Shown here one piece after another: positions 8,922 to 22,305 of a stretch of DNA of 58,776 nt. The notes beneath the pieces are model-generated. The model was not told the DNA's origin and did no database searches. It saw only the letters and a list, made by a program, of their open reading frames with translations. The position numbers and the translations under genes are program-made. The stretch lies in NCBI GenBank assembly GCA_905480485.1, contig CAJQQM010000165.1:1-58776 (forward strand). The letters are read 5' to 3'. The stretch's first letter is position 1. Each line of letters opens with the position of its first letter. Source of the stretch: an uncultured Aureispira sp. (GTDB lineage Bacteria > Bacteroidota > Bacteroidia > Chitinophagales > Saprospiraceae).

Positions 8922-9827
8922 TTATTTGGTAACTTCTTGAAATACTTCTTCAATTGAGGTGCTTTTTTGATGCATTTCAAGCAAGGCTACCGACTGTTCA
9001 ACCGCAAAGTTGAAGATTGCTGGGCGAATATCTTCTTTGCTATTCGTCCGTATTTCATAGCGATTTGAACCCGTGCATTTCAAAGAGGTTATTTCTGTAT
9101 ATTTTTTTAACAATTGATCGTTGACGGGTGCACTAAACTCTACAAATATTTGGGTCTGCTTAGTCAGCTGTTGTTGAAGTAGCTCAATTGAATTATTTGC
9201 GACCATTTTCCCTTTGTTGAGAATAATCACACGATCGCAAAGTGCCTGTACTTCCTGCATTATGTGCGAAGAAAAAATAACTGTTTTTTCGCTACCTAAA
9301 GATTGAATCAAGTTTCTTATTTCAATCAGCTGATTGGGATCTAAGCCTGAAGTAGGTTCATCCAAAATAAGAACTTCAGGGTCGTGAAGCATCGCTTGCG
9401 CTAAGCCCACCCTTTGCCGATAACCCTTTGAAAGGGATCCTATTAACTTATGTCTTTCTAAACTTAGACCGGTGCGTTCAATCATTCGTTCTACCGCTTG
9501 TTTTTTGCCACTAACCTTGTGTAGGCCCGCTATAAACAACAAGTACTCTTGCACGTACATTTCGAGATACAAAGGGTTGTGTTCTGGCAAATATCCAATT
9601 CGATGTTTCACCGCTTTGGTATCCTGCCCTACCGAATAACCACAAACGCTAATTGATCCGCTTGTGGGTGGCGTAAAACAGGTGATCATTTTCATCGTGG
9701 TCGTTTTCCCGGCACCATTTGGCCCTAAAAACCCCAGAATTTGTCCTTTTTTGGCTTCAAAACTAATGTTATCAACCGCATTTTGAGTGCCGTATGTTTT
9801 GGTCAAATTGCTAACAATTACCGACAT
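8922..9827 (-). CDS. gldA: GldA, ABC transporter ATP-binding subunit
   Basis: A 301-residue ABC ATPase with Walker A GPNGAGKTT (about residues 34-42), signature LSKGYRQRVGLAQA, Walker B LILDEPTSGLD and switch His in FSSHIMQEV. Sequence features such as IGYLPEHNPLYLEMYVQEYL match the gliding-motility GldA group. GldA pairs with permease GldF and auxiliary protein GldG, whose genes lie about 45 kb away at 54.7-57.2 kb on the other strand. It is 62 bp after the glycosyltransferase gene, in the same minus-strand run. Confidence 0.85.
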   Translation of the reverse strand: MSVIVSNLTKTYGTQNAVDNISFEAKKGQILGFLGPNGAGKTTTMKMITCFTPPTSGSISVCGYSVGQDTKAVKHRIGYLPEHNPLYLEMYVQEYLLFIAGLHKVSGKKQAVERMIERTGLSLERHKLIGSLSKGYRQRVGLAQAMLHDPEVLILDEPTSGLDPNQLIEIRNLIQSLGSEKTVIFSSHIMQEVQALCDRVIILNKGKMVANNSIELLQQQLTKQTQIFVEFSAPVNDQLLKKYTEITSLKCTGSNRYEIRTNSKEDIRPAIFNFAVEQSVALLEMHQKSTSIEEVFQEVTK

Positions 9828-9889: not shown

Positions 9890-11857
9890 TTAGGGAATAA
9901 ATTCATTGGTATCTCCGTAAAGAATTGGATTGCCTACACGGAAAGAAATTCTGAAATTATCCAATCGAAAAGGTCTTTTTTCTCGGTTCCAAAAGTAGGT
10001 TTTTATTTTGTAACCTTGAACGTTTTTATAAAACTTTTCGTGTGCAAACCGCGTCGAAATATAAAGACGCTGCCAGCTTGAGTCTACCGTCGTTTGTTGA
10101 TGCACTTCAACGCCTTTCCATTGTATTTTCGTTCCCTTACTAATTTCTAGTACCAAGACCGCACCAGGAATTCGTTTGATTGAATCAGATGTCTGTACAT
10201 CCATACTAATATCTAAAATAAAATTAGGATGCGGTAAAAAATCAAGTGCTGTTTGATAGCTAGGGCCCCATTCTGATGCTGTTTGAAAATAGTAATTTTG
10301 TCGGAATTGATCATAACGGACCTGTGCTGAATCTATTTGCCATCCATTACTTGTATCCGGTGGGTTAAATGTCGTCTTTTGTAAAAAGGCAGCTGCTAAA
10401 GGGTTGCCCTCTTTTGGATGCTTTGATAAAATATAATATTCGTAATTCACGCCCATAGATTTTTTGTGTACATAGGGGAATAAATCAAAGGCTAATCGAT
10501 AATGAGCCTCCGGCATATTACCAACAATCAGATAATCAAAACTATCGGCAACAATTATTTGTTTGAATTCTTGAAAAAAGATGGCTGGTTTAAAACTACT
10601 AACATACTCAAAATTAGCCTGATGATAGTTTTTGTAATAGTCTATATATTCAGGATTTTCGCCCAGTACAATAGCTACTTTCGAAGCAGGGTGCGTCTTT
10701 AAAAATTGATCTGTCTGTACCACAAAATGCTCATAAGGATGGCTATTCATCGTTTGAAAATGCTTTCTGCCGACCACTAGACTATAGCAATTAAAGCATA
10801 AAATGGTCAAGACAAGTAGGACCAAATGCTTAGATGTTAAACTTTTATTGAAAGGGGCCATCAAAAAAAACAAAAGAAAGGGGAACGAGAACAGCAGATG
10901 TGATGTACGTAAAATTGGTGAATAATTTACCGAATACCAATAGCCAAAAAGTAAGGGGAACAAAAACCAACACAATGCCATTTTTCGCAAAGACCGTTGT
11001 TGAGAATCGACTATTTTAAAGCGAAAACCATACAAAACAATTGCTAACAAGAGCAAAAGATTGAGATTTGAATAATGAAAAAGGTAGCGAAGGTGATTCC
11101 AAAAAAAGGATGGCCCAGGGATTTCGTACCATAAGTGTCCATCTGCATTTAGCAATTGATATTCAGTGATTGACCAATGAGGCGCAAATAAAATTAGCAT
11201 ACCGAAGCCCGAAAAAACATACTTTAATAAAATAGATTTGCGTAGCCAAAACAATCCACTAAGCCCCACCACAGCTGCAAATAGGAGGCTAAAATAATGA
11301 TTATACATGCACGCAGCCCCTGCCAAAACAAAGCCTAGCCAATACCGCTTTTTATCTTGTTTTTCTATCAACAGGCGCGTCCAAAAATGAACCATCAACA
11401 AAACACAGAATAGGCCACTTTGGTATTGACGAGCAATACCACTCCACCAAATTGGAAATTGCATACTCACAAAATAGGCCAGAATAATCAACGCAGCATT
11501 TTTAGAGAACCACCGGCATGCTAGGTGAAATACTCCATACATCGACAAAAATGAACAGCAGAAAAAAGGAAGCTTGATAAGCCATTCATCTGTTCCGAAA
11601 AGCAGGGTCCAATAATAGACAAAAACATACATTCCTACAGGATGCGAATCGACGGCTTTTATATTGTCGATAAGATCCGATAATTGATCGTAATTTACTT
11701 TTGACCAAGTACTTAGTTCATCGTTGATAAAGGATATTTCAAAAGGGTTGCCCAAACGAAGGAACAGCCCTAAGACTAAACAGCCCAAAAGCAATCCTAA
11801 CTGTATATTTGTTGTATTTGTCCTTGTATCTTTCATTATTTTTGACCAAATATTCAT
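9890..11857 (-). CDS. GT39/PMT-like polytopic glycosyltransferase with C-terminal jellyroll tail
   Basis: The start at 11857 lies just after the upstream stop; ATG 11836 is also possible, and 11902 would overlap the previous gene. The product of about 655 residues has roughly ten or more membrane segments. A first-loop acidic motif, INDELSTW, matches the catalytic position of GT-C transferases that use polyprenyl-phosphate sugars. From about residue 505 to the end is a soluble beta-sandwich predicted to face the periplasm, ending with KIKTYFWN and RLDNFRISF strands. This tail resembles that of the SGNH protein two genes upstream. It probably transfers a sugar to an envelope glycan; donor and acceptor are unknown. 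Confidence 0.72.
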   Translation of the reverse strand: MNIWSKIMKDTRTNTTNIQLGLLLGCLVLGLFLRLGNPFEISFINDELSTWSKVNYDQLSDLIDNIKAVDSHPVGMYVFVYYWTLLFGTDEWLIKLPFFCCSFLSMYGVFHLACRWFSKNAALIILAYFVSMQFPIWWSGIARQYQSGLFCVLLMVHFWTRLLIEKQDKKRYWLGFVLAGAACMYNHYFSLLFAAVVGLSGLFWLRKSILLKYVFSGFGMLILFAPHWSITEYQLLNADGHLWYEIPGPSFFWNHLRYLFHYSNLNLLLLLAIVLYGFRFKIVDSQQRSLRKMALCWFLFPLLFGYWYSVNYSPILRTSHLLFSFPFLLFFLMAPFNKSLTSKHLVLLVLTILCFNCYSLVVGRKHFQTMNSHPYEHFVVQTDQFLKTHPASKVAIVLGENPEYIDYYKNYHQANFEYVSSFKPAIFFQEFKQIIVADSFDYLIVGNMPEAHYRLAFDLFPYVHKKSMGVNYEYYILSKHPKEGNPLAAAFLQKTTFNPPDTSNGWQIDSAQVRYDQFRQNYYFQTASEWGPSYQTALDFLPHPNFILDISMDVQTSDSIKRIPGAVLVLEISKGTKIQWKGVEVHQQTTVDSSWQRLYISTRFAHEKFYKNVQGYKIKTYFWNREKRPFRLDNFRISFRVGNPILYGDTNEFIP

Positions 11858-11859
11858 CT

Positions 11860-13647
11860 TTAGTTGACCAAAACAGGTACCCGTCGATCGTATTGCATCC
11901 ACCCCAAACTATCGCCCGCAATTGGGTCAATTTGCAATTCATAGTTTCCTTTTTCCTTTGGAATATCTATTAAAACGTACTGATAGTACGTACTGAGGGG
12001 TTGCAAATCAATCTCAAGGGGATTTCTGTAACTTTCCCAATGTACTATTTTACCCTCTTTCCACCAATGATAGCCTATTTTAATTTGTGTGCCACTAAGT
12101 GCTTTTTTACCTAAATTATTCATTTTTATTAAGAAATTGATTTGTTCGCCGGCTTTACAAGGGCGTGGTACATAGGTTTTAATGCTGAGGTTTTGTTGGA
12201 GTGTTTGAATAGTTTGCAGCGGTTCGGCACCTCCGCTAAGGTATTGATAGCGCCCTGCTGGAAAATCAAAATAACGTGTGTTCACCTCTTTGTGCAAGTG
12301 CATCGAATCGAGTCGGTCATAAAAACTTCGAAAGCTAAACATGTACATGCTACTGTCTTGAAGCAGTCGAGCATTCGCCCCGCTGTCCCATTCTGAATCT
12401 CTAATAATTTGTATCGTTTTGCGTGTGGGAGACAGGGCAGAAATGAGCATAGATTCCATTCCTAATGTAAAACTTGTCCCTCCGAACAAGGGATTCCAAC
12501 TATATTCATGCATGATAAATTTGTTCCCCTCAATAGCTTGAGTGGCCTCGGCAATACGATGCATATAATCGACTCGGTGGGTAAAGGGTTTGATGTGTAC
12601 AGAAATTGCATAAAACCGATACAGTATAAGGACAAAAAAGCCCAAACTTAAAAACCAACGTGCTTTTTGAGACAGTTGATTGCTTATCTGAAACAAAAGC
12701 GGAAAACAGGCTACAAAAATAAGTGGATAATAACACTGTTCTTGATAGCGCGAATGTCGGATTCCTGGATAAGTAAGGGCAATAATATACTGCGTAAGCA
12801 CCAAAAACAGTATAAACCCCAAGGCGTTGCTAAATTTCCGCTGCCTTATGTACAATATAGTTGTAACAAAAGCTAGCCCCCATACTTCAATGTAGAATTG
12901 CCTGTAAAACTTCAATAAGGGAAGCCCATAATCGGTCCAACCATAGCTTCTATTGGTTAAATTATGTAAAAAATTCTGCATTTTAGCAATTTCGTAGCTG
13001 TGTGCTGTTAGGCTTTGTTTGAACAAAAAACAGAGTAAAATGATCAGACAACAAAATACATATTGGCGCATGTACCGAATGCCATATTGTTTAAAATGCA
13101 TCAACAAGACGCCTGCAATCATAAAAATGATCAATTGGTAATTAATTACCATCGTTATCAAGAACAAGCTTAAAAGTATATAGTGCCAAAATCCAGATTG
13201 ATTGCGATACATTTCCAGGGCAAATAAAGCTAAAAAAGCGGTAGCGTAATACAGTTCATAGCCTGGCGCACAAAATCCCCAAAGTATTCCAAGGGTTTGT
13301 GTTAATATCAACAACCACCCAATATAATGATGCTGATAGCGATACCTAGCTATCAAGTATATAAGGTAAAAGAAGACAACATGCCCTACTGAATAGGCTT
13401 GCAAAACAGTTCGCAAATCAAAGCCTAACTTGATACAAGTCAAGGGTAACCACTGCGAAAACACACGCATAAATCGATTAAGCTCCATCCAAAACGTTTC
13501 GTAATGAATTACTTTGCTAATAAAAAAACCCGAATCGCTGTACAGTCGTTCTTGAAAAAATACCAAAGCCATCCAAGCCCACAACAGAAAACTTAAATGA
13601 GTCAATCCATCATTTATTTTGGTATAGGTAGGCGAGGTTTTAATCAT
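11860..13647 (-). CDS. Polytopic membrane protein with C-terminal Ig-like domain, glycan-cassette member
   Basis: A 595-residue protein with about ten hydrophobic segments in the first 370 residues and a soluble C-terminal part. The start overlaps the end of the SGNH gene by 8 bp, indicating translational coupling. The last 110 residues form an Ig-like sandwich with a GYHWW...VHWES...LQPL pattern, a kind of tail I know from LPS/capsule enzymes. I cannot assign a named family to the membrane part; it could be a GT-C-like transferase or a polymerase/ligase-like protein. Its place between an O-acyltransferase pair and a GT39-like enzyme suggests a role in glycan assembly (inference). Confidence 0.62.
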   Translation of the reverse strand: MIKTSPTYTKINDGLTHLSFLLWAWMALVFFQERLYSDSGFFISKVIHYETFWMELNRFMRVFSQWLPLTCIKLGFDLRTVLQAYSVGHVVFFYLIYLIARYRYQHHYIGWLLILTQTLGILWGFCAPGYELYYATAFLALFALEMYRNQSGFWHYILLSLFLITMVINYQLIIFMIAGVLLMHFKQYGIRYMRQYVFCCLIILLCFLFKQSLTAHSYEIAKMQNFLHNLTNRSYGWTDYGLPLLKFYRQFYIEVWGLAFVTTILYIRQRKFSNALGFILFLVLTQYIIALTYPGIRHSRYQEQCYYPLIFVACFPLLFQISNQLSQKARWFLSLGFFVLILYRFYAISVHIKPFTHRVDYMHRIAEATQAIEGNKFIMHEYSWNPLFGGTSFTLGMESMLISALSPTRKTIQIIRDSEWDSGANARLLQDSSMYMFSFRSFYDRLDSMHLHKEVNTRYFDFPAGRYQYLSGGAEPLQTIQTLQQNLSIKTYVPRPCKAGEQINFLIKMNNLGKKALSGTQIKIGYHWWKEGKIVHWESYRNPLEIDLQPLSTYYQYVLIDIPKEKGNYELQIDPIAGDSLGWMQYDRRVPVLVN

Positions 13648-15040
13648 CTCTAGATCTCTTTTTTAGTTGCACGTCAAATTCATCTACCCACAAGTCTTTG
13701 TTGCCGTTGTTCCATACATATACTTTTAGTTCCGAATCTTCTGAGGCTGCCGCTATATTTAGTTGATGTTGCACGCTGTTCCATGTCAAGGTATCAAGCA
13801 ATTGAGGTTTTAGAGCTTGCGCATCCCACATTATACTCGAATCATTTCGTTCCAAAGCAACGACCAAATAGGCATCATTCAAATTCATTTGATAGCCAGC
13901 CCATACCCAAGCCGTGGCTTCTACTTGTAGGTCATCTGCTTTTATTTCAGCCATTGGCAATGAAAAAGTGCTTGAAAATCCTCCGGCAGCAATACGATTC
14001 GAAAAGTTTCCTTTAAAGGCCGTGTCTGAGCGCATGAACGGGTTCATATCCGACCAATTGCGAAGCGTAAATTGCTCCATACTGTTCGTTGTACTGTACA
14101 AAGGCGGGGACTGTTCAAATAAGCGTTTCTTTATTTGTTTTGCTAAGTAGATCGATAGTTTTTGGGCCGAACTTTTAAGCAAATGTGACCCGTCGTAGGT
14201 TTGGTATTGATAACGATCTTTTATGTCGATCCAAGTGCCACCCACTGCCTCTATTTGAGCTGCAATAGCCGATTCACGAAACTGGCTTAGGGTATTTTCT
14301 GCGCTTTCGAAATGTGCTGCTGCGGGCGGCCTAAAAGCAATTACTTCAATCCCCCTTGCTTCCCAGCCTGCAATTAAATGTATTAATCGGGTTTGGTAAT
14401 ACAGGCTCCAAACTGCTTTCTTATAGCCATCCTCCAACATCCACAAATCCTTCCACAAGTCAGTCGGTATTTTTTCAGAAGCTATCCAGCCATTTTTATA
14501 ATGTTTCTGGAAATACCCTTCTTTGTTATCTACTAGAAGATTGCGGACTAAAGATGGGGCACTCGGATCAAAATTGCCTAAAAATGTATTTAAATACCTG
14601 CGTTGTAGCTGTTCGGTATAAGAACGGTTTTTTTCTTGGTAATAATGGATGTTACGCATGTTTTCATCGGCCAAAGCAGAAGGAGATACTCCCAAAACTA
14701 AAATCGGAGGCTGTGCATTAGTATCTAATAAGCGAATAGCGTCTTCTATAAAAGCACTGTCTAAGCCCGCCGATGAAAAACCAAAATTAAAAACTTTAAT
14801 AGCTTGGTCACCCCCCATTAGCTTTTCTATACAAGCGGGGTCGACACCTCTATATATACGAGAATCTCCCACAATTACCATATCATATCGATCATTCGTA
14901 TGAATTTTATGATGCCAAAATAAGCCCGATTCTGTCGAAGAAGAGGGTTTAGCTGGCAAAAAATAGGCAAAGATTCCCCACAGGCACAAGCTTAGCCCAA
15001 CGGTGGTATAAAATCGTTTGTTCCAAGTATTTTTTAGCAT
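13640..15040 (-). CDS. SGNH/AlgJ-like O-acetylation protein with C-terminal jellyroll
   Basis: A 466-residue protein with an N-terminal membrane anchor (about residues 9-29), then an SGNH-type domain: block I VGDSR with the nucleophile Ser (about residue 58), and a late DGSHLL containing the Asp-His pair (about residue 277). This is the pattern of AlgJ/AlgX/DltD-like partners of MBOAT proteins, which complete acyl transfer to a polysaccharide in the periplasm. From about residue 325 a CBM-like beta-sandwich follows, ending KVYVWNNGNKDLWVDEF. The MBOAT gene is 6 bp upstream, forming an evident functional pair. Confidence 0.8.
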   Translation of the reverse strand: MLKNTWNKRFYTTVGLSLCLWGIFAYFLPAKPSSSTESGLFWHHKIHTNDRYDMVIVGDSRIYRGVDPACIEKLMGGDQAIKVFNFGFSSAGLDSAFIEDAIRLLDTNAQPPILVLGVSPSALADENMRNIHYYQEKNRSYTEQLQRRYLNTFLGNFDPSAPSLVRNLLVDNKEGYFQKHYKNGWIASEKIPTDLWKDLWMLEDGYKKAVWSLYYQTRLIHLIAGWEARGIEVIAFRPPAAAHFESAENTLSQFRESAIAAQIEAVGGTWIDIKDRYQYQTYDGSHLLKSSAQKLSIYLAKQIKKRLFEQSPPLYSTTNSMEQFTLRNWSDMNPFMRSDTAFKGNFSNRIAAGGFSSTFSLPMAEIKADDLQVEATAWVWAGYQMNLNDAYLVVALERNDSSIMWDAQALKPQLLDTLTWNSVQHQLNIAAASEDSELKVYVWNNGNKDLWVDEFDVQLKKRSRDD

Positions 15041-15046
15041 TTAATT

Positions 15047-16471
15047 TTAAAATTGAAAATAGATAAATTCGGCTGTAGGCCCTCTAAAATAAACACTAAG
15101 AGCAATTAAAAACGCCATAGATAAGCATTCATACCAAAACAACCGGCTAAAGGATCTTAATCGAGGGCTTCTTTGCTTTATAAAATACCAAGATTCTACG
15201 GCAACTGCAATAATTAGATAAATTATAGTGTCAAAATATTGGCTAAACAAAAGATCGTTACCGACACCGTTGGTCGAAAACATACGGCCTAATATTGTTA
15301 ATGCCTGTTCCATATCTTGGGCTCGAAAAAACACCCAAGCTACCAAAACCTGCCACATGACAATCAAATAGGCAAGAAACTTGCCCAAAGGCAAGCCGGA
15401 TAATCGCTTCGGGAATTGACTAATTCGTTCGAAGGATAAAAATGCTGCATGTAAAGCTCCCCAAACAACAAAATGAAGGGCCGGCCCATGCCATAACCCC
15501 GAAAGTATCATTGTGATCCACATATTGCGGTACCAAGACCATTTACTCCGACGATTTCCCCCTAAAGGTATGTACACATAATCCCGAAACCAAGTAGATA
15601 GTGAAATATGCCACCTTTCCCAAAAGTTTTTGAGTGAACATGCATGATAGGGATGTTTAAAATTAGATTTGAAGCGATATCCCATCCATTTAGCTAAGCC
15701 CCTAGCAATAGAACTATAGCCGGCAAAATCAAAATAAATCTGAAAACTAAATGCCAATACAACCATCCACCAAAACAAAGCGGAGGGCTGCGTGTCTATC
15801 TCCCAAAAAGCTTTGTTGACCACAACCGCAAGATTGTCGGCAAGGACCATCTTCTGAAAAAATCCATAGACGATCAATTTAAATCCCAACCAATACCCTA
15901 GGCTTGTTTGTCGACGATTTTCGGCTAATTGTCGCAACATATCTTTGGCCCTAACTATTGGTCCTGCAACCAATTGAGGGAACATCGACAAATAGGCAAA
16001 AAAGTGTAAAACGCTTTTGACGGGTTTTAAATTTGATCTGTACACATCGATGGTATAACTCATCGATTGAAAGGTGTAAAAACTGATGCCTACCGGCACT
16101 ACCAAAGACCATTCGGGTAAGCTTCCGACACAATTAATAGACCAACCAAAGGCAGCAAAAGCGGTATCGATGAGCCCTGCAAAAAAAGCACTGTATTTAA
16201 AAACTGATAGCCCCCCTAGGTTGCCAAATAACGACAACAACAACAAAAGTTTACGCTGACTGGGTTTTTGGTGCATGTACTTTGCTGCCCCAAAATCGAC
16301 CAATCCACTAAACAAGATAAGCAACAAAAAGCGCCAATCCCACCATCCGTAAAAAACAAAAGAAAAGAAAATAATACATATCCACCGACTCGTATCCCGC
16401 TGTTTTGCCCATTGCCAAACAGAAAAGAATAGTATAAAAAAAATAAAAAAAACCAGGGAATTAAACAGCAT
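15047..16471 (-). CDS. MBOAT-family membrane O-acyltransferase (AlgI-like)
   Basis: A 474-residue polytopic protein with the MBOAT start MLFNSLVF, the FDFAGYSSIARG segment, NFWERWHISLSTWFRDYVYIPLGG and the catalytic His in LWHGPALHFVVWG. These are hallmarks of AlgI/PatA/DltB-type enzymes that move acetyl groups across the cytoplasmic membrane to a partner acting on cell-surface polysaccharide. The partner is the SGNH protein 6 bp downstream. It lies about 105 bp after porZ on the same strand. The acceptor glycan is not identifiable from sequence. Confidence 0.9.
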   Translation of the reverse strand: MLFNSLVFFIFFILFFSVWQWAKQRDTSRWICIIFFSFVFYGWWDWRFLLLILFSGLVDFGAAKYMHQKPSQRKLLLLLSLFGNLGGLSVFKYSAFFAGLIDTAFAAFGWSINCVGSLPEWSLVVPVGISFYTFQSMSYTIDVYRSNLKPVKSVLHFFAYLSMFPQLVAGPIVRAKDMLRQLAENRRQTSLGYWLGFKLIVYGFFQKMVLADNLAVVVNKAFWEIDTQPSALFWWMVVLAFSFQIYFDFAGYSSIARGLAKWMGYRFKSNFKHPYHACSLKNFWERWHISLSTWFRDYVYIPLGGNRRSKWSWYRNMWITMILSGLWHGPALHFVVWGALHAAFLSFERISQFPKRLSGLPLGKFLAYLIVMWQVLVAWVFFRAQDMEQALTILGRMFSTNGVGNDLLFSQYFDTIIYLIIAVAVESWYFIKQRSPRLRSFSRLFWYECLSMAFLIALSVYFRGPTAEFIYFQF

Positions 16472-16576
16472 CTGATCGGTTTGCGAAGCGCCAAAAACGG
16501 CGTAATTTTCACAAAATACACAAGAAGCACTGCATTTTAAAAAATGACTCGATAAAAATGCTGTAACAAATAGTTG

Positions 16577-18925
16577 TTAATTATTGAACAATAATTTACA
16601 AACCTTTTTTTGCCCTCCTGATTCATTAACAACAAAAACTAAGTATACCCCTGATTGCGCTCTTCGACCGTTGTAATCGGAGCCGTTCCAGATAGCTTGA
16701 CCTCCTAAGGCAGTAGTTTCGTAAACCAGGCGGCCACTAATATCTGTTATCTTAACGTTGGCCATATCTGCCAAACCCGGAAAAGCGATAGGCCCATCAT
16801 AGCCGGGTGCAACCGGGTGAGGAAAACATTTACAAGACTCTACATTCATTTTGGGCCTCCCTACTGTTGAACTAGTACGAAAAGACTGAATGCCAACAGA
16901 TGTAGAAACGTACAACATCCCTGTTTGTCCGTCAAAAGCTAACTTATTGACTTCATTATCAAACAAGGGACTATTTTCTTTGTTGAGGTAAAGCAACTGT
17001 TCATAGCCATCCTCAGACAATAAAAACAAACCATTTTTCGTCCCTACCCATTTGCGGTTTGCTCCGTCTACCTCGATTGAAAGAATTTCTTCACCTCCTA
17101 ACAAATAGCCATTAAAATTGTCTTGGCTTATAATTGGTCGGTTACCCTGACAAGCCCCATCCATAACATTCGATGCACAATTAAAAATAGTAATCCCTTC
17201 GTTGGTACCTACCCAAATAACACCATTTCTGTCGGCCTTGAGTGTGGTTATATTGTTGTTGGGAAGCACTGTATTATTGTCGCCTAATTGAATAGAACGG
17301 TCGTCGGTATCGTCGTTGAGAACGCCACTATCAAAGACCGTTATTCGGCCAGTTATTTGTTTAATCCATTTGTATCCGTTGCGATCAATCGCCAATTCTT
17401 CTACCTGGTAATCGTTAAACTTTGAACTCGGGAATGCTTTCCAATCTCCATTCAATTTGCGCGCAACTAGTAGTGAATTATAGGTTCGTGAATTAGTCAT
17501 CCACAAGGTGCCATCATCATCGACTGCCAAGCCCATAATCCTAGTTCTAAGCGGATCGCCATCGGCAGCATTAAGCGGCACATTCGGACTGTATTGATCA
17601 AAAATTGTTAAGTTTTCGGCAGCATCTATTTCTAACAAACCACTCATAAAAGACCCTACATACACCTTGTTGTTGTCAGGATTAGACAATACTCTAATCG
17701 CATCATAAAAAGTATCTAGGGCGGGTTGAGTACTTTTGTTAAACAAAGACCAAGAACCATTTTCGTATTTAAAAACACCAAATGAATTAAAATATGCGGA
17801 ATTTGTGTTGTAGTTAGAGGATGTAACCCACAAGACACCGTCTTGATCAACATGCATGTCCGAAACTAAATTACGGTAGGGGGCATCGGGTCTTATGTAT
17901 TGAAAATTATGATGAATATAGCCTAAATCTGCAGCCCAGGTAAGGTTGTTTTGGTCCACTACCATATCTTGCAAACGCCAAGAACCCGCATAATAGGGGG
18001 TATAAATAGCATTGTCGGCCTCGACACGATGATATATATTAGTATTCGTAGTGATGATAAAATCATTTTTGTCATAGCTTAGCGAAAAATTATAATTATT
18101 GATATAATCGCTATTTCCGCTAGGCTTCCAAAAACTAAACGAACTCGTATCTCTGTAATCTACCCCACTTAGATGTTCCCACTGACCATTCGAATATTGC
18201 ACAAGCGTATCGCTTAAGTCGGCATAAATCTTCCCTTGAAAAAAAATAATATTTTTAGACGTATAGTTGATGGCATTTAGCCCATTAGCAGCCCCTTGAA
18301 GCTCCCAAATTCCAAAGTCCAATAAATTTCGACCATCCAAAACACCTGAAAAAATCCCAGCATTTGTAGAGATAAACAAGGTGTCATTTAATCTCGCACA
18401 AGCATTTACCTCTGAACTTGTAAAAGTAGTTTGGCTAAATGCTTCTATATCGAGATCGTATACTACCAAGCCAAAAGAACATGAAAAATAAATTTTATTC
18501 CCATCATTAAAAATATGATTGACTGATTTGTCCCCTACTACACTTGTATTGTTTAGAATAGACGACAAATTAACCACCGCCCCGTTATCATAAAACAAAT
18601 CGATATTTCCATTATTGTAAGCAACAACTAATAGGTTTTCAGATTGATTATATTCAATTGTAGAAATTCCCATATCACTTAGCCCACTCACTTTATTGAG
18701 GTATTCTAGGGACAAATCTTCTTTATTGACCTTAAGAACAGCCTGTGTCGATCCATAATAAACAGCATCTTGACTTTCGGTGACCGCTACGATTGATTCA
18801 TACGAGAGGTGTGAACGCCAAGTTCCTATTGCCACAGCATCATTTTGCGCAACAAGAACATTTAGATGCATCCAAAAGAAGATAATAACAAAAATACTTT
18901 TAAAGGCTTTTTTTATACTATACAT
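16577..18925 (-). CDS. porZ: PorZ-like T9SS beta-propeller protein with C-terminal sorting domain
   Basis: A 782-residue secreted protein with signal peptide ending LVA|QND, then IGTWRSHLSYES, the start motif of the PorZ N-terminal propeller. Repeated two-component-regulator-type blades follow (for example DGVLWVTSS, DGTLWMTNS, NGVIWVGTN, NRKWVGTKNGLF). The last 90 residues form a type-A T9SS sorting domain (VKITDISGRLVYE...NGRRAQSGVYLVFV). In Porphyromonas, PorZ is part of the surface attachment complex that recognises anionic LPS and helps PorU attach it to T9SS cargo. It heads the minus-strand run containing the O-acylation cassette. PorZ is the best fit; a generic propeller T9SS protein is the alternative. 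Confidence 0.78.
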   Translation of the reverse strand: MYSIKKAFKSIFVIIFFWMHLNVLVAQNDAVAIGTWRSHLSYESIVAVTESQDAVYYGSTQAVLKVNKEDLSLEYLNKVSGLSDMGISTIEYNQSENLLVVAYNNGNIDLFYDNGAVVNLSSILNNTSVVGDKSVNHIFNDGNKIYFSCSFGLVVYDLDIEAFSQTTFTSSEVNACARLNDTLFISTNAGIFSGVLDGRNLLDFGIWELQGAANGLNAINYTSKNIIFFQGKIYADLSDTLVQYSNGQWEHLSGVDYRDTSSFSFWKPSGNSDYINNYNFSLSYDKNDFIITTNTNIYHRVEADNAIYTPYYAGSWRLQDMVVDQNNLTWAADLGYIHHNFQYIRPDAPYRNLVSDMHVDQDGVLWVTSSNYNTNSAYFNSFGVFKYENGSWSLFNKSTQPALDTFYDAIRVLSNPDNNKVYVGSFMSGLLEIDAAENLTIFDQYSPNVPLNAADGDPLRTRIMGLAVDDDGTLWMTNSRTYNSLLVARKLNGDWKAFPSSKFNDYQVEELAIDRNGYKWIKQITGRITVFDSGVLNDDTDDRSIQLGDNNTVLPNNNITTLKADRNGVIWVGTNEGITIFNCASNVMDGACQGNRPIISQDNFNGYLLGGEEILSIEVDGANRKWVGTKNGLFLLSEDGYEQLLYLNKENSPLFDNEVNKLAFDGQTGMLYVSTSVGIQSFRTSSTVGRPKMNVESCKCFPHPVAPGYDGPIAFPGLADMANVKITDISGRLVYETTALGGQAIWNGSDYNGRRAQSGVYLVFVVNESGGQKKVCKLLFNN

Positions 18926-19082: not shown

Positions 19083-19356
<274 letters not shown>

Positions 19357-19411: not shown

Positions 19412-21247
19412 CTATTCTTGAGCCAATGGCAAATTAGCTTGGGCTCGGTCCGAATCAGTAACGCCCATGGTAGATACAGGAAGTTTACTTTCTTTGTATC
19501 CGACGCATTGTCCAATTAAACTGTATTTTTGGTCTGCCTCGAGCAAAACTTCTACTTCACCACGCTCGTTCGCTTCCACTATTTTTTCTTCTTGTGTAAA
19601 TTTATTTTTAACCAACACCCTAGCATCAGATAAAGGTCTTGAGTTAGCCACGTCCATAACTTTGAGGATGACCGTCAAAACTACTTTTGAACTTGTATTG
19701 GTTTCGGCAGCGACAGTTGTATTGGAATTATCAACCGTCTCTGTATTGTTTTGTTTATTTTTTTCTTGCTCTAGTGTTACTTTGTCAATATAGTTTTGAG
19801 TGTCAACATGATCCGGATTAGCGTTAGGCAAATCCAACTTGCCCTCTTCGTTTAGTCTTTTGAGATACTCTACATATTCAACATCTGTCATTTCATCCGG
19901 TTGTTCTGGAAACTCTGCATCCAAAACCGCCTCATGCCCAACCTCAGACATACCCGTACTTTTTCTGGGTCCGATATCATCTGGCAAAGTTTGACGTTCG
20001 GCGTCTTTTAGGCTGTATTTAAAAATATCATAGCTCTTAGAGCGATTAGAAGACATAAAACCACTTGTCTGATCATCAGCCATGATAAATGAAATATCAT
20101 TAAATGATGAATTAAAAGGCTGTCCTAGATTCTCTATTGGCAACCAATCTATTCCGTTCCCTAAAGGGCGCGTTCTGAACACATCGTAGCCACCAAAGCC
20201 AGGATGCCCTTTTGAAGAGAAATACAAATCTCCATCGGGGTGTATAAAAGGCCAAGAATCGTCTTGGTCTGTATTTATTTCGGCACCAAGGTTCTTAGGC
20301 GCTGTCCAACGACCATCTTCATAATTTGTTACCCATATGTCAAAGCCGCCAATAGAGCCCTTCATATCTGAAGAAAAATACAAGGTTTTGCCATCTGCCG
20401 ACAAAGAAGGATGTGTAAAGTTAGAACCAAGCAGTAAAAAAGGGAGTGGCGTAGCATCTGACCATTTTCCGTCCCTGAAAAAAGATTTCCAAATTTGCAA
20501 TGCCGTTCCTCCATTATTGGTTTTGACGCTTTGCGAATAAAAAATCTTAATACCATCTCTAGTAAAAGTAGCCGGTCCATCATGACGATCGTGTCCGTTA
20601 AGCGAGTGCGAAAATTTGTCGGATAATTTTAAATTACCTTCACTATCTAGGCCACAAGCTCTAAGGTTTAGATAATTTTTGTTGCGCATATCTCCTACTT
20701 CTTCACTTATTTCATCAGAGGCAAAAACCACTGCATCTCCGTAGTAAGTTACACCGATTTGCTTGGTGGTAGAATCGTTTACCGCTGCCTGAAAAGCCAA
20801 ATCTACTCCAGAAAAAAGCGGCTCAATGTTTTCAATGTCTCTACATTGTTGGATTAATTTAGCTGGTTCAAGCGATTTAATATTTTTTTCGGCATAAATT
20901 TCAAATTGTCTTATTGCCGCATCGTATTGTCCCAAAGACATCAAGACTTTTCCGTACTCCAAATAAACCCGCATCCTATCATCAGCATATTTGATAATTT
21001 GCTCATAAAGCTTTTGGGCCTTAAAAGGATATTCTAAAACCCGGTAACAATCCGCCAAATTCATTTTAGCATCCACCCCCAACAAACGAACACCTGAAGC
21101 CGACAAGGCCAATTGTTCGTATTCTGAAACAGCACTAGGATAATCCTTATCTTTGTAAAAAGCATTTCCTTTTTTGAGGTGTATGATTTTTTGGGCACAA
21201 ATATTGGATAATGGAAAAAGTATCAGAACTAATAGTAAAAATCTCAT
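19412..21247 (-). CDS. PorE-like TPR/beta-propeller secreted protein lacking an OmpA domain
   Basis: A 611-residue protein with signal peptide ending ICA|QKI. TPR-like helices span about residues 25-150 (GNAFYKDKDYPSAVSEYEQL). A PD40/WD40-like propeller spans about 170-430, with blades such as LSADGKTLYFSSD, IHPDGDLYFSSKG and SSFNDISF. A low-complexity acidic linker (about 440-525) precedes a carboxypeptidase-regulatory/transthyretin-like domain (about 530-605). This is the order found in the T9SS protein PorE, but PorE is a lipoprotein that continues into an OmpA-like peptidoglycan-binding domain; here the protein stops after the regulatory domain and has no lipobox. It may be a paralogue of PorE-type proteins. 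It is a single-gene unit with its own terminator. Confidence 0.72.
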   Translation of the reverse strand: MRFLLLVLILFPLSNICAQKIIHLKKGNAFYKDKDYPSAVSEYEQLALSASGVRLLGVDAKMNLADCYRVLEYPFKAQKLYEQIIKYADDRMRVYLEYGKVLMSLGQYDAAIRQFEIYAEKNIKSLEPAKLIQQCRDIENIEPLFSGVDLAFQAAVNDSTTKQIGVTYYGDAVVFASDEISEEVGDMRNKNYLNLRACGLDSEGNLKLSDKFSHSLNGHDRHDGPATFTRDGIKIFYSQSVKTNNGGTALQIWKSFFRDGKWSDATPLPFLLLGSNFTHPSLSADGKTLYFSSDMKGSIGGFDIWVTNYEDGRWTAPKNLGAEINTDQDDSWPFIHPDGDLYFSSKGHPGFGGYDVFRTRPLGNGIDWLPIENLGQPFNSSFNDISFIMADDQTSGFMSSNRSKSYDIFKYSLKDAERQTLPDDIGPRKSTGMSEVGHEAVLDAEFPEQPDEMTDVEYVEYLKRLNEEGKLDLPNANPDHVDTQNYIDKVTLEQEKNKQNNTETVDNSNTTVAAETNTSSKVVLTVILKVMDVANSRPLSDARVLVKNKFTQEEKIVEANERGEVEVLLEADQKYSLIGQCVGYKESKLPVSTMGVTDSDRAQANLPLAQE

Positions 21248-21603: not shown

Positions 21604-22305
21604 ATGAAATCGTTAATGCTTACATTAATAGCATTTATATGCTGCTTAAATTACGCTGATTGTCAAATCGAAGCCTCTATCAAAGAGGAAACAAAAGCAA
21701 ATAGCCAAGGAAGTTTCAATGCTTTGGTGATGGAGTTGCCCGGAACAACCGGAAAAGAGGTCAATAAAGCCTGGAGTAAATTTATGAAAAAGTATCGTGG
21801 AAAAACCAAATTTGATCGAAGGGCAAACGAATACATGACGGATGATGCTACTATCAAAGAAATGAGTGACAATACGGTAGATATTATAGCAAAAGTTGAA
21901 GAACGCGGCGCAGACGGTACCGCTATTTCTGTTTGGTTTAATTTGGGCGTTTCTTATCTTTCGTCTAAAGACCATTCCGAACGTTATCCTGCTGGCGAAA
22001 AACTCTTAAAATTGTTTGCCAATCAGGTTTCTGCTGACATGATTGAACAAGAACTAGCAAAAGCAGAAAAAGCACTCAAAGACCTAGAAGATGCCCTCAA
22101 AAAACTAGAAAAAGAAAAAGTTCAGGGCGAGAAAGATATCGAGGATTATAAAGCGACTATTTTAAAGATGGAAGAAAATATTTTGAAAGGGGAAGATGCA
22201 CTCAAAAAAAATGACGAAGACCAAAGTAAAACTTCTTTAAGCATCGAAGAACAACTTAAAATAGTTGAAGAGATTAAAAGCCGATTGGAAAGTATTAAAA
22301 TTTAA
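21604..22305 (+). CDS. Secreted coiled-coil protein of unknown function
   Basis: A 233-residue protein with a signal peptide ending about YADC|QIE. A small alpha/beta-like middle part (about residues 35-130, with FNALVMELPGTTGKEVNKAW) precedes a highly charged coiled coil from about 145 to the end, rich in Lys-Glu heptads. I do not recognise a named family. It may be an oligomeric periplasmic or outer-membrane-associated protein. It has a good terminator about 50 bp downstream and is probably transcribed alone. Confidence 0.75.
   Translation: MKSLMLTLIAFICCLNYADCQIEASIKEETKANSQGSFNALVMELPGTTGKEVNKAWSKFMKKYRGKTKFDRRANEYMTDDATIKEMSDNTVDIIAKVEERGADGTAISVWFNLGVSYLSSKDHSERYPAGEKLLKLFANQVSADMIEQELAKAEKALKDLEDALKKLEKEKVQGEKDIEDYKATILKMEENILKGEDALKKNDEDQSKTSLSIEEQLKIVEEIKSRLESIKI

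Follow-up and report, generated by a model that had tools for sequence, protein, structure and literature searches.

The DNA analysed here, called the window below, is a stretch of 58,776 nucleotides from an uncultured Aureispira sp. (assembly GCA_905480485.1), and it comprises the entire contig CAJQQM010000165.1 of a genome in 272 contigs. In the window, porZ and gldA enclose four genes, encoding a membrane-bound O-acyltransferase (MBOAT), an SGNH-like acyltransferase, a polytopic membrane protein and a PMT_2/GT39-like membrane glycosyltransferase. Our best explanation, to which we assign a probability of about 0.6, is that these four genes form an island specific to Aureispira and its nearest kin, which would assemble and O-acylate an extracytoplasmic glycan. 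That the island lies next to porZ reflects how the porZ–gldA interval is arranged in one lineage, a single genus of marine gliding bacteria.

Gene content of the porZ–gldA interval

The list of open reading frames (ORFs) in the window contains six consecutive ORFs, all on the minus strand, in the order PorZ, MBOAT, SGNH, polytopic, PMT_2/GT39-like and GldA. The PorZ ORF (16577..18925, 782 residues) scored 497.1 bits against NF052228 (cut-off 260), and its N-terminal propeller matched PF21544 with 126 bits. The MBOAT O-acyltransferase (15047..16471, 474 residues) scored 81.3 bits against PF03062 (cut-off 27). It is followed by the SGNH-like acyltransferase (13640..15040, 466 residues), which is modelled, at low confidence, with an N-terminal helix and a C-terminal beta-sandwich and whose GDS and D-G-x-H motifs are invariant in the alignment, and by the polytopic protein (11860..13647, 595 residues), for which an AlphaFold2 (AF2) model shows a GT-C-like membrane domain and a C-terminal Ig-like sandwich. 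The PMT_2/GT39-like protein (9890..11857, 655 residues) scored 36.3 bits against PF13231 (cut-off 26.1). The constant downstream flank is GldA, the gliding-motility ABC ATPase (8922..9827; TIGR03522, 439.9 bits, cut-off 402.6). The SGNH and polytopic proteins matched no Pfam or NCBIfam family above cut-off. The ORFs and the family scores confirmed the six genes, their single strand, their order and their end points as given in an earlier note on this DNA.

The same note had placed porZ at the head of a closely spaced cassette. The 6-bp gap between MBOAT and SGNH, the 8-bp overlap between SGNH and polytopic, and a near-zero gap between polytopic and GT39 were all found; the last is 2 bp with the ATG start at 11857, and an alternative longer GTG ORF overlaps the polytopic gene. 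PorZ, in contrast, lies 105 bp from the MBOAT gene. The tight run is therefore MBOAT–SGNH–polytopic–GT39, with PorZ set apart, and 62 bp separate the GT39 gene from gldA.

A putative acyl-transfer pair and two glycosyltransferase-like proteins

In what follows, G000 is the genome of the window, other G numbers are other genomes and L numbers are the loci compared. The cassette MBOAT carries LWHG (15485..15496, minus strand), whose His328 we take, from the motif, as the catalytic histidine, and it ends in FIYFQF (15050..15067, minus strand), which corresponds to the acyl-shuttle motif FXYXXF with Tyr471 as the tyrosine. Excerpts of PMC12148441 describe a universally conserved MBOAT histidine and, for PatAB, a C-terminal FXYXXF tyrosine that ferries the acyl group from the MBOAT to the SGNH protein, the motif belonging either to the MBOAT itself or to a DltX-like microprotein. 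The SGNH protein has block I as GDSR with Ser60 (14858..14869, minus strand) and block V as DGSH with Asp283 and His286 (14183..14194, minus strand). All seven cassette MBOATs checked kept LWHG and had FIYFQF as their last six residues, and all six cassette SGNH proteins checked had GDSR and DG[SN]H. The pair agrees with known acyl-shuttle chemistry in every sequence motif tested, and it probably transfers an acyl group to a glycan.

We compared the two proteins with structures and with their relatives. The MBOAT profile matched the DltB structures 6bug and 8jem among PDB sequences (E ~1e-27), and the protein scored 138.5 bits against the DltB equivalog TIGR04091, below the cut-off of 375. When the SGNH protein was searched against 150 genomes of the family, 16 matched at E ≤ 1e-3, and the only full-length relative besides that of the own genome was in G127. 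G005, G035, G106 and G122 have weak relatives (E 5e-6 to 4e-4), each directly 3' of an MBOAT gene and on its strand, as expected for an SGNH partner, and many further weak matches covered the C-terminal domain alone, within larger ORFs. A search of plasmids with the SGNH protein returned nothing useful. Foldseek with the SGNH model (pLDDT 61.8) listed the acyltransferase 8zbc (E 1.1e-3) at rank 24, below other matches including lectins and carbohydrate-binding modules (CBMs), which, from their length, appear to fall on the C-terminal strands.

The AF2 model of the polytopic protein, made from 12 sequences, had a mean pLDDT of 86.8. The best structural match of its membrane part was ALG12 (Z 13.6, root-mean-square deviation 5.5, 375 residues aligned), followed by oligosaccharyltransferase (Z 11.8), DPY19 (Z 10.2), ALG9 and PglB (Z 10.0), all of which are GT-C enzymes; since helical models reach Z ~14 by arrangement alone, we call the protein GT-C-like, an unproven assignment. 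The C-terminal sandwich had the Wzt carbohydrate-binding domain among its matches (Z ~9), and Foldseek matches of the model were mostly to the sandwich domain. With the GT39 and polytopic profiles, we obtained no useful match among PDB sequences, one search giving five weak matches at E 0.2 or worse.

The two enzyme types are joined by a shared domain. Residues 315–464 of the SGNH protein (13649..14098, minus strand) are homologous to residues 505–660 of the GT39-like protein (hhalign probability 97.4%, E 1e-11), placing the C-terminal domain of the latter at 9923..10390 (minus strand, limits approximate). Profile comparisons of the polytopic protein with GT39 and with SGNH found no sequence link from its sandwich to either.

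These features resemble several known systems in part. In the AlgI/AlgJ/AlgX (alginate) and WssH/WssI (cellulose) systems, the acyl pair sits with glycan-assembly genes, as it does here, although the cassette has GT-C-type proteins and not a polysaccharide synthase. Both systems are named as MBOAT/SGNH pairs in excerpts of PMC12148441. Two of the SGNH partners at five other MBOAT loci were scanned, and one matched the AlgX family. As with DltB/DltD, the cassette MBOAT profile matches DltB structures, but the protein falls below the DltB equivalog cut-off and has the shuttle tail fused to it. The PMT_2/GT39 and GT-C enzymes (ALG12, PglB/STT3) are matched by family in the GT39-like protein and by fold in the polytopic protein, both of which, unlike them, carry C-terminal sandwiches.

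Recurrence within the genus and beyond

The genus search (mostly Aureispira) covered nine genomes including the own one, eight of which had porZ above cut-off. The porZ–gldA interval is contiguous in seven genomes and is filled with cassette-type genes in every one of them, two of the seven lacking MBOAT and SGNH there, and MBOAT with SGNH was found in seven of the nine. Elsewhere in the genus, the four cassette genes recur with 36–66% protein identity, which argues for more than chance adjacency. G153 has the layout of G000 as far as MoxR, and G152 has it until its contig ends after the polytopic gene. In G127 and G151, which are near-identical at porZ and hence one lineage, the interval has in addition a 795-residue membrane protein and a 268-residue GDSL protein (PF13472, G127 copy). 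G150 has MBOAT, SGNH, a 266-residue relative of the G127 GDSL protein, GT39 and a polytopic gene reduced to a fragment. G155 carries the cassette on two contig pieces (L129 and L134) and no porZ above cut-off was found in it. gldA directly follows GT39 in all seven porZ-bearing genomes of the genus whose contig reaches gldA, own included, and also in G155.

Two of the additional genes were noted further. The 795-residue membrane protein (L035:7966-10353 and L115:6959-9346, in the two near-identical genomes) lies directly after porZ and has an SGNH-type C-terminal domain; its L035 copy had no Pfam match. The second hydrolase gene lies just before GT39 (L035:15160-15966, GDSL family; L116:10385-11185, a similar protein), a 264-residue ORF occupies the equivalent position at L129:1817-2611, and this hydrolase is possibly an opposing esterase.

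Outside the genus, we scanned 80 porZ neighbourhoods hand-picked from the 150-genome family draw (2 from the same genus, 78 from other genera) and 40 loci from the phylum, taken out of 158 genomes with a match (39 outside the family and 1 inside, several from one genus). The scanned span was mostly ~12 kb downstream and 5 kb upstream in the family set and ~8.5 kb per side in the phylum set, and shorter at contig ends. Profile scans at E 1e-5, and at a laxer E 1e-3 with the same outcome, detected MBOAT, polytopic or GT39 relatives near porZ in 0 of the 78 family loci of other genera and 0 of the 40 phylum-set loci, so that conserved porZ synteny beyond close relatives, as the earlier note would have predicted, was not borne out. 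We therefore rejected a general porZ-linked acylation system: among the 80 family and 40 phylum neighbourhoods, relatives occur only at the genus loci. Within the open-access papers searched, none joined MBOAT and PorZ in such a linkage.

GT39 relatives occur in five of the 150 family genomes (E ≤ 1e-5), namely G076, G107 and three members of the genus. In both G076 and G107 the GT39 relative is on a different contig from porZ; the G107 porZ is truncated by the contig start, so that it may have a neighbour on that side. In G076, a related lineage that belongs to another genus in the genome set, the polytopic and GT39 genes lie side by side at L133, and the surrounding ~10 kb holds neither porZ nor MBOAT nor gldA; hence the polytopic–GT39 pair can stand alone. 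At the family locus L037, two other membrane proteins bear SGNH-type C-terminal domains.

A different membrane-protein family, which we read as GT-C-like, lies beside porZ in two other genera: upstream, with a GT2 gene between, in G099 (L037:14475-18973) and directly downstream in G090 (L095:7508-9331). It is present in 86 of the 150 family genomes with one to four matches apiece, and we dismissed it as a recurrent neighbour of porZ, two cases being near chance (rough estimate 0.6 within 10 kb). A crude hydropathy scan flagged 2 of the 40 phylum-set loci, one with a SpoIIE-domain protein and the other with a protein without family.

The earlier reading of porZ as the first gene of the cassette raises the matter of transcription. 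From porZ to the next cassette gene, the distance is 105, 525, 329, 116, 116, 190, 91 and 14 bp in G000, G153, G152, G127, G151, G150, G021 and G154, respectively. Folding identified strong hairpins after porZ in G152 (z −4.5), G127 (z −3.2) and G150 (z −6.4), and no notable hairpin in G000 (z −0.9), G021 (z −1.2) or the folded part of the G153 gap (z 0.4). A T-rich stretch follows the hairpin in G152 and G127, and less so in G150. The terminator script flagged the porZ gap in G152 and G021, and not in G127 or G150, which leaves G152 as the one genome on which both tests concur; moreover, G152, G127 and G150 are a single clade, and their hairpins are therefore not independent. The hairpins make co-transcription doubtful in these three sister lineages, where the cassette is probably a separate transcript by these predictions. 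In the window, where no such hairpin is evident, read-through from porZ into the cassette is possible.

Five of the seven loci examined (G153, G152, G127, G150 and G021) have a candidate TAAATTTG box upstream of the porZ ORF, its end lying ~44–214 bp away; G154 carries TACATTTG instead, and G000 has none. TAnnTTTG also occurs within the porZ–MBOAT gaps of G152 and G150, and one further promoter pattern gave zero matches. The stretch around TAAATTTG upstream of porZ is conserved in L117, L035, L116, L036 and L119 and CTATAGAATCTAC comes before it in all but one of them. This stretch resembles a porZ promoter common to much of the genus and not evident in the window, and on our reading of the motif most of the genus would transcribe porZ from a separate promoter.

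The upstream flank of porZ in the window is a PorE/CHU_0125-like TPR-PD40 protein (19412..21247, minus strand; NF052230, 205 bits, and NF053607, 206 bits, both below cut-off), and a terminator-like hairpin lies 3' of its gene. Between this gene and porZ, a perfect 4-base repeat (AAGT on the plus strand, 8 copies, 19184-19215) could be a slippage site; the repeat has 7, 5 and 8 copies in this gap in G153, G127 and G150, and G152, G154 and G021 have none of at least 4 copies. A divergent gene on the opposite strand (21604-22305) encodes a 233-residue coiled-coil-like protein with no family above cut-off, and it adjoins the porZ region in six of the seven other genus loci read, at 57–78% identity, the seventh stretch (L116) stopping short. 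An Rfam search of the window gave nothing useful.

Function of the island and its relation to porZ

The following mechanism is consistent with these features. At the inner membrane, the MBOAT would accept an acyl group, which is probably acetyl supplied by acetyl-CoA, and attach it to Tyr471 in the FIYFQF tail at its own C-terminus. From this tail the group would pass to Ser60 of the SGNH protein, which is taken to be anchored in the membrane and would move it onto a sugar hydroxyl. On the periplasmic side, the polytopic and PMT_2/GT39-like proteins would use polyprenyl-phosphate donors to add sugars, and the SGNH and GT39 proteins probably share a glycan acceptor, held by their C-terminal beta-sandwiches. 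The motifs, the domains, the SGNH/GT39 C-terminal homology and the recurring gene order in the genus are the observed parts of this scheme, from which we infer the acyl group, the sugar, the acceptor, the membrane side and the joint working of the four genes.

That the four genes act as a unit is supported by their tight spacing in the window, the recurring order in the genus and the separate clustering, in a tree, of the cassette MBOATs from five other MBOATs of the own genome and G127. For the glycan side, the PMT_2 match, the GT-C-like fold, the shared C-terminal domain and the lectin and CBM matches of the low-confidence SGNH model point in the same direction. Of the earlier proposal, the glycan cassette itself, an O-acylation pair with membrane glycosyltransferase-like proteins, compact and recurring beside porZ in the genus, has thus held up, whereas its tie to attachment in the type IX secretion system (T9SS) is not supported, the synteny and transcription results speaking against it.

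Several observations weigh against an island of this kind. The shuttle motif is not specific to the cassette, as it also ends the five other MBOATs (three further ones of the own genome and two of G127), and exact LWHG is absent from two of these. The AF2 model of the SGNH protein is weak (pLDDT 61.8), with a helix at residues 2–27 and C-terminal strands; its profile found no relatives among PDB sequences, where absence from a structure list is not counted as absence of a relative, and a profile of the SGNH partners at the five other MBOAT loci did not match it. The polytopic protein resembles GT-C enzymes in structure alone, at a Z within the helical background given above, and the porZ–gldA interval contains no sugar-nucleotide genes. 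The composition of the interval also varies: MBOAT and SGNH are absent from it in G021 and G154, where GT39 is accompanied by two polytopic genes and by a single one, respectively, and the polytopic remnant of G150 (L116:11282-11506) has five internal stops and 21–46 residues aligned and overlaps the end of the SGNH ORF. The four genes are therefore not an obligate unit. Since the porZ tree places G021 with G000 and G153 (support 100) and G154 as basal, MBOAT and SGNH were probably acquired once G154 had diverged, with a later loss in G021, or else acquired on two occasions.

The foremost alternative, which we consider possible and clearly less probable than a dedicated island, is that these are common glycan genes whose chance closeness to porZ has simply not been broken up within a single genus. 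With that of the cassette, G000 carries four MBOAT loci, MBOAT relatives occur in 102 of the 150 family genomes (E ≤ 1e-10), and the flanking SurA-like and MoxR genes also stay put in several genomes. However, the gene order was kept while SGNH identity fell to 37–47%, and short gaps and overlaps join the four genes in the window. Kept order and short gaps argue for a unit of four, and less for a bond with porZ; nothing shows that porZ requires the island, the linkage being a property of one genus.

We regard as unlikely the proposal that the cassette makes or decorates the glycan by which PorU and PorZ attach cargo, O-acylation tuning recognition by PorZ. The cassette is linked to porZ within the genus, and PorU and lipid A genes are present: PorU above cut-off in eight of the nine genus genomes (the best match of G151 being 111 bits, below cut-off), LpxC in all nine and LpxK in seven. 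According to excerpts of PMC8545088, Porphyromonas gingivalis PorZ binds anionic lipopolysaccharide (A-LPS), and the genus resembles this pathway in having the PorZ and PorU families. Excerpts of PMC11969387 state that the T9SS cargo glycan has been elucidated for just a few species from the mouth, that linking sugars differ between species and that, in its authors' view, several pathways may exist. In contrast, the A-LPS gene list, as given in excerpts of PMC7468200, names no MBOAT–SGNH pair. Synteny outside the genus was zero in both sets of loci, MBOAT and SGNH are absent from the G021 and G154 intervals, hairpins separate porZ from the cassette in three sister lineages, the polytopic–GT39 pair of G076 is on a different contig from porZ, and the interval is tied to gldA as firmly as to porZ. 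A review, in an excerpt (PMC7956469), says that the chemistry of A. marina suggests an absence of lipopolysaccharide; we did not use this as support, given the presence of LpxC and LpxK. As for PorU, G127, G150 and G155 have two neighbouring sortase genes above cut-off and the own genome has one, while G151 has none despite its near-identity to G127.

It is likewise improbable that the genes form a protein O-glycosylation module, in which the GT39/PMT-like enzymes would glycosylate exported proteins and the acyl pair would modify the protein glycan. PMT_2 is named after protein mannosyltransferases, and the best whole-domain matches of the polytopic model include oligosaccharyltransferases and a C-mannosyltransferase; yet the evidence is a fold match with no specific sign of an acceptor peptide, and PMT_2 members use acceptors of many kinds. 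Finally, O-acetylation of peptidoglycan by a PatA/PatB-like pair whose place among glycosyltransferases is incidental is highly unlikely: the two-protein chemistry and shuttle motif are as in PatAB, an MBOAT with a C-terminal FXYXXF tail adjoining an SGNH protein with an N-terminal helix, but the cassette SGNH protein, without a family above cut-off, ends in the domain common to its GT39 neighbour, which points to the neighbour's glycan.

An island that assembles and O-acylates an extracytoplasmic glycan accordingly remains our preferred reading. Predatory grappling hooks are known in Aureispira. The compact, genus-specific acyl- and glycosyl-transfer island adjoining porZ is a concrete candidate in the search for a T9SS cargo glycan. 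One speculative extension, quite unlikely in our estimate, is that Aureispira replaced or extended the A-LPS-type cargo anchor with its own GT-C-built, O-acylation-switched glycan, keeping the genes beside porZ; if so, the choice of surface proteins to be tethered or released would shift as the island turns over from one species to another. Even if unrelated to the T9SS, the island adds an MBOAT–SGNH pair in which a domain of the SGNH protein is homologous to one of the neighbouring glycosyltransferase, a hint as to how such enzymes may find their glycan.

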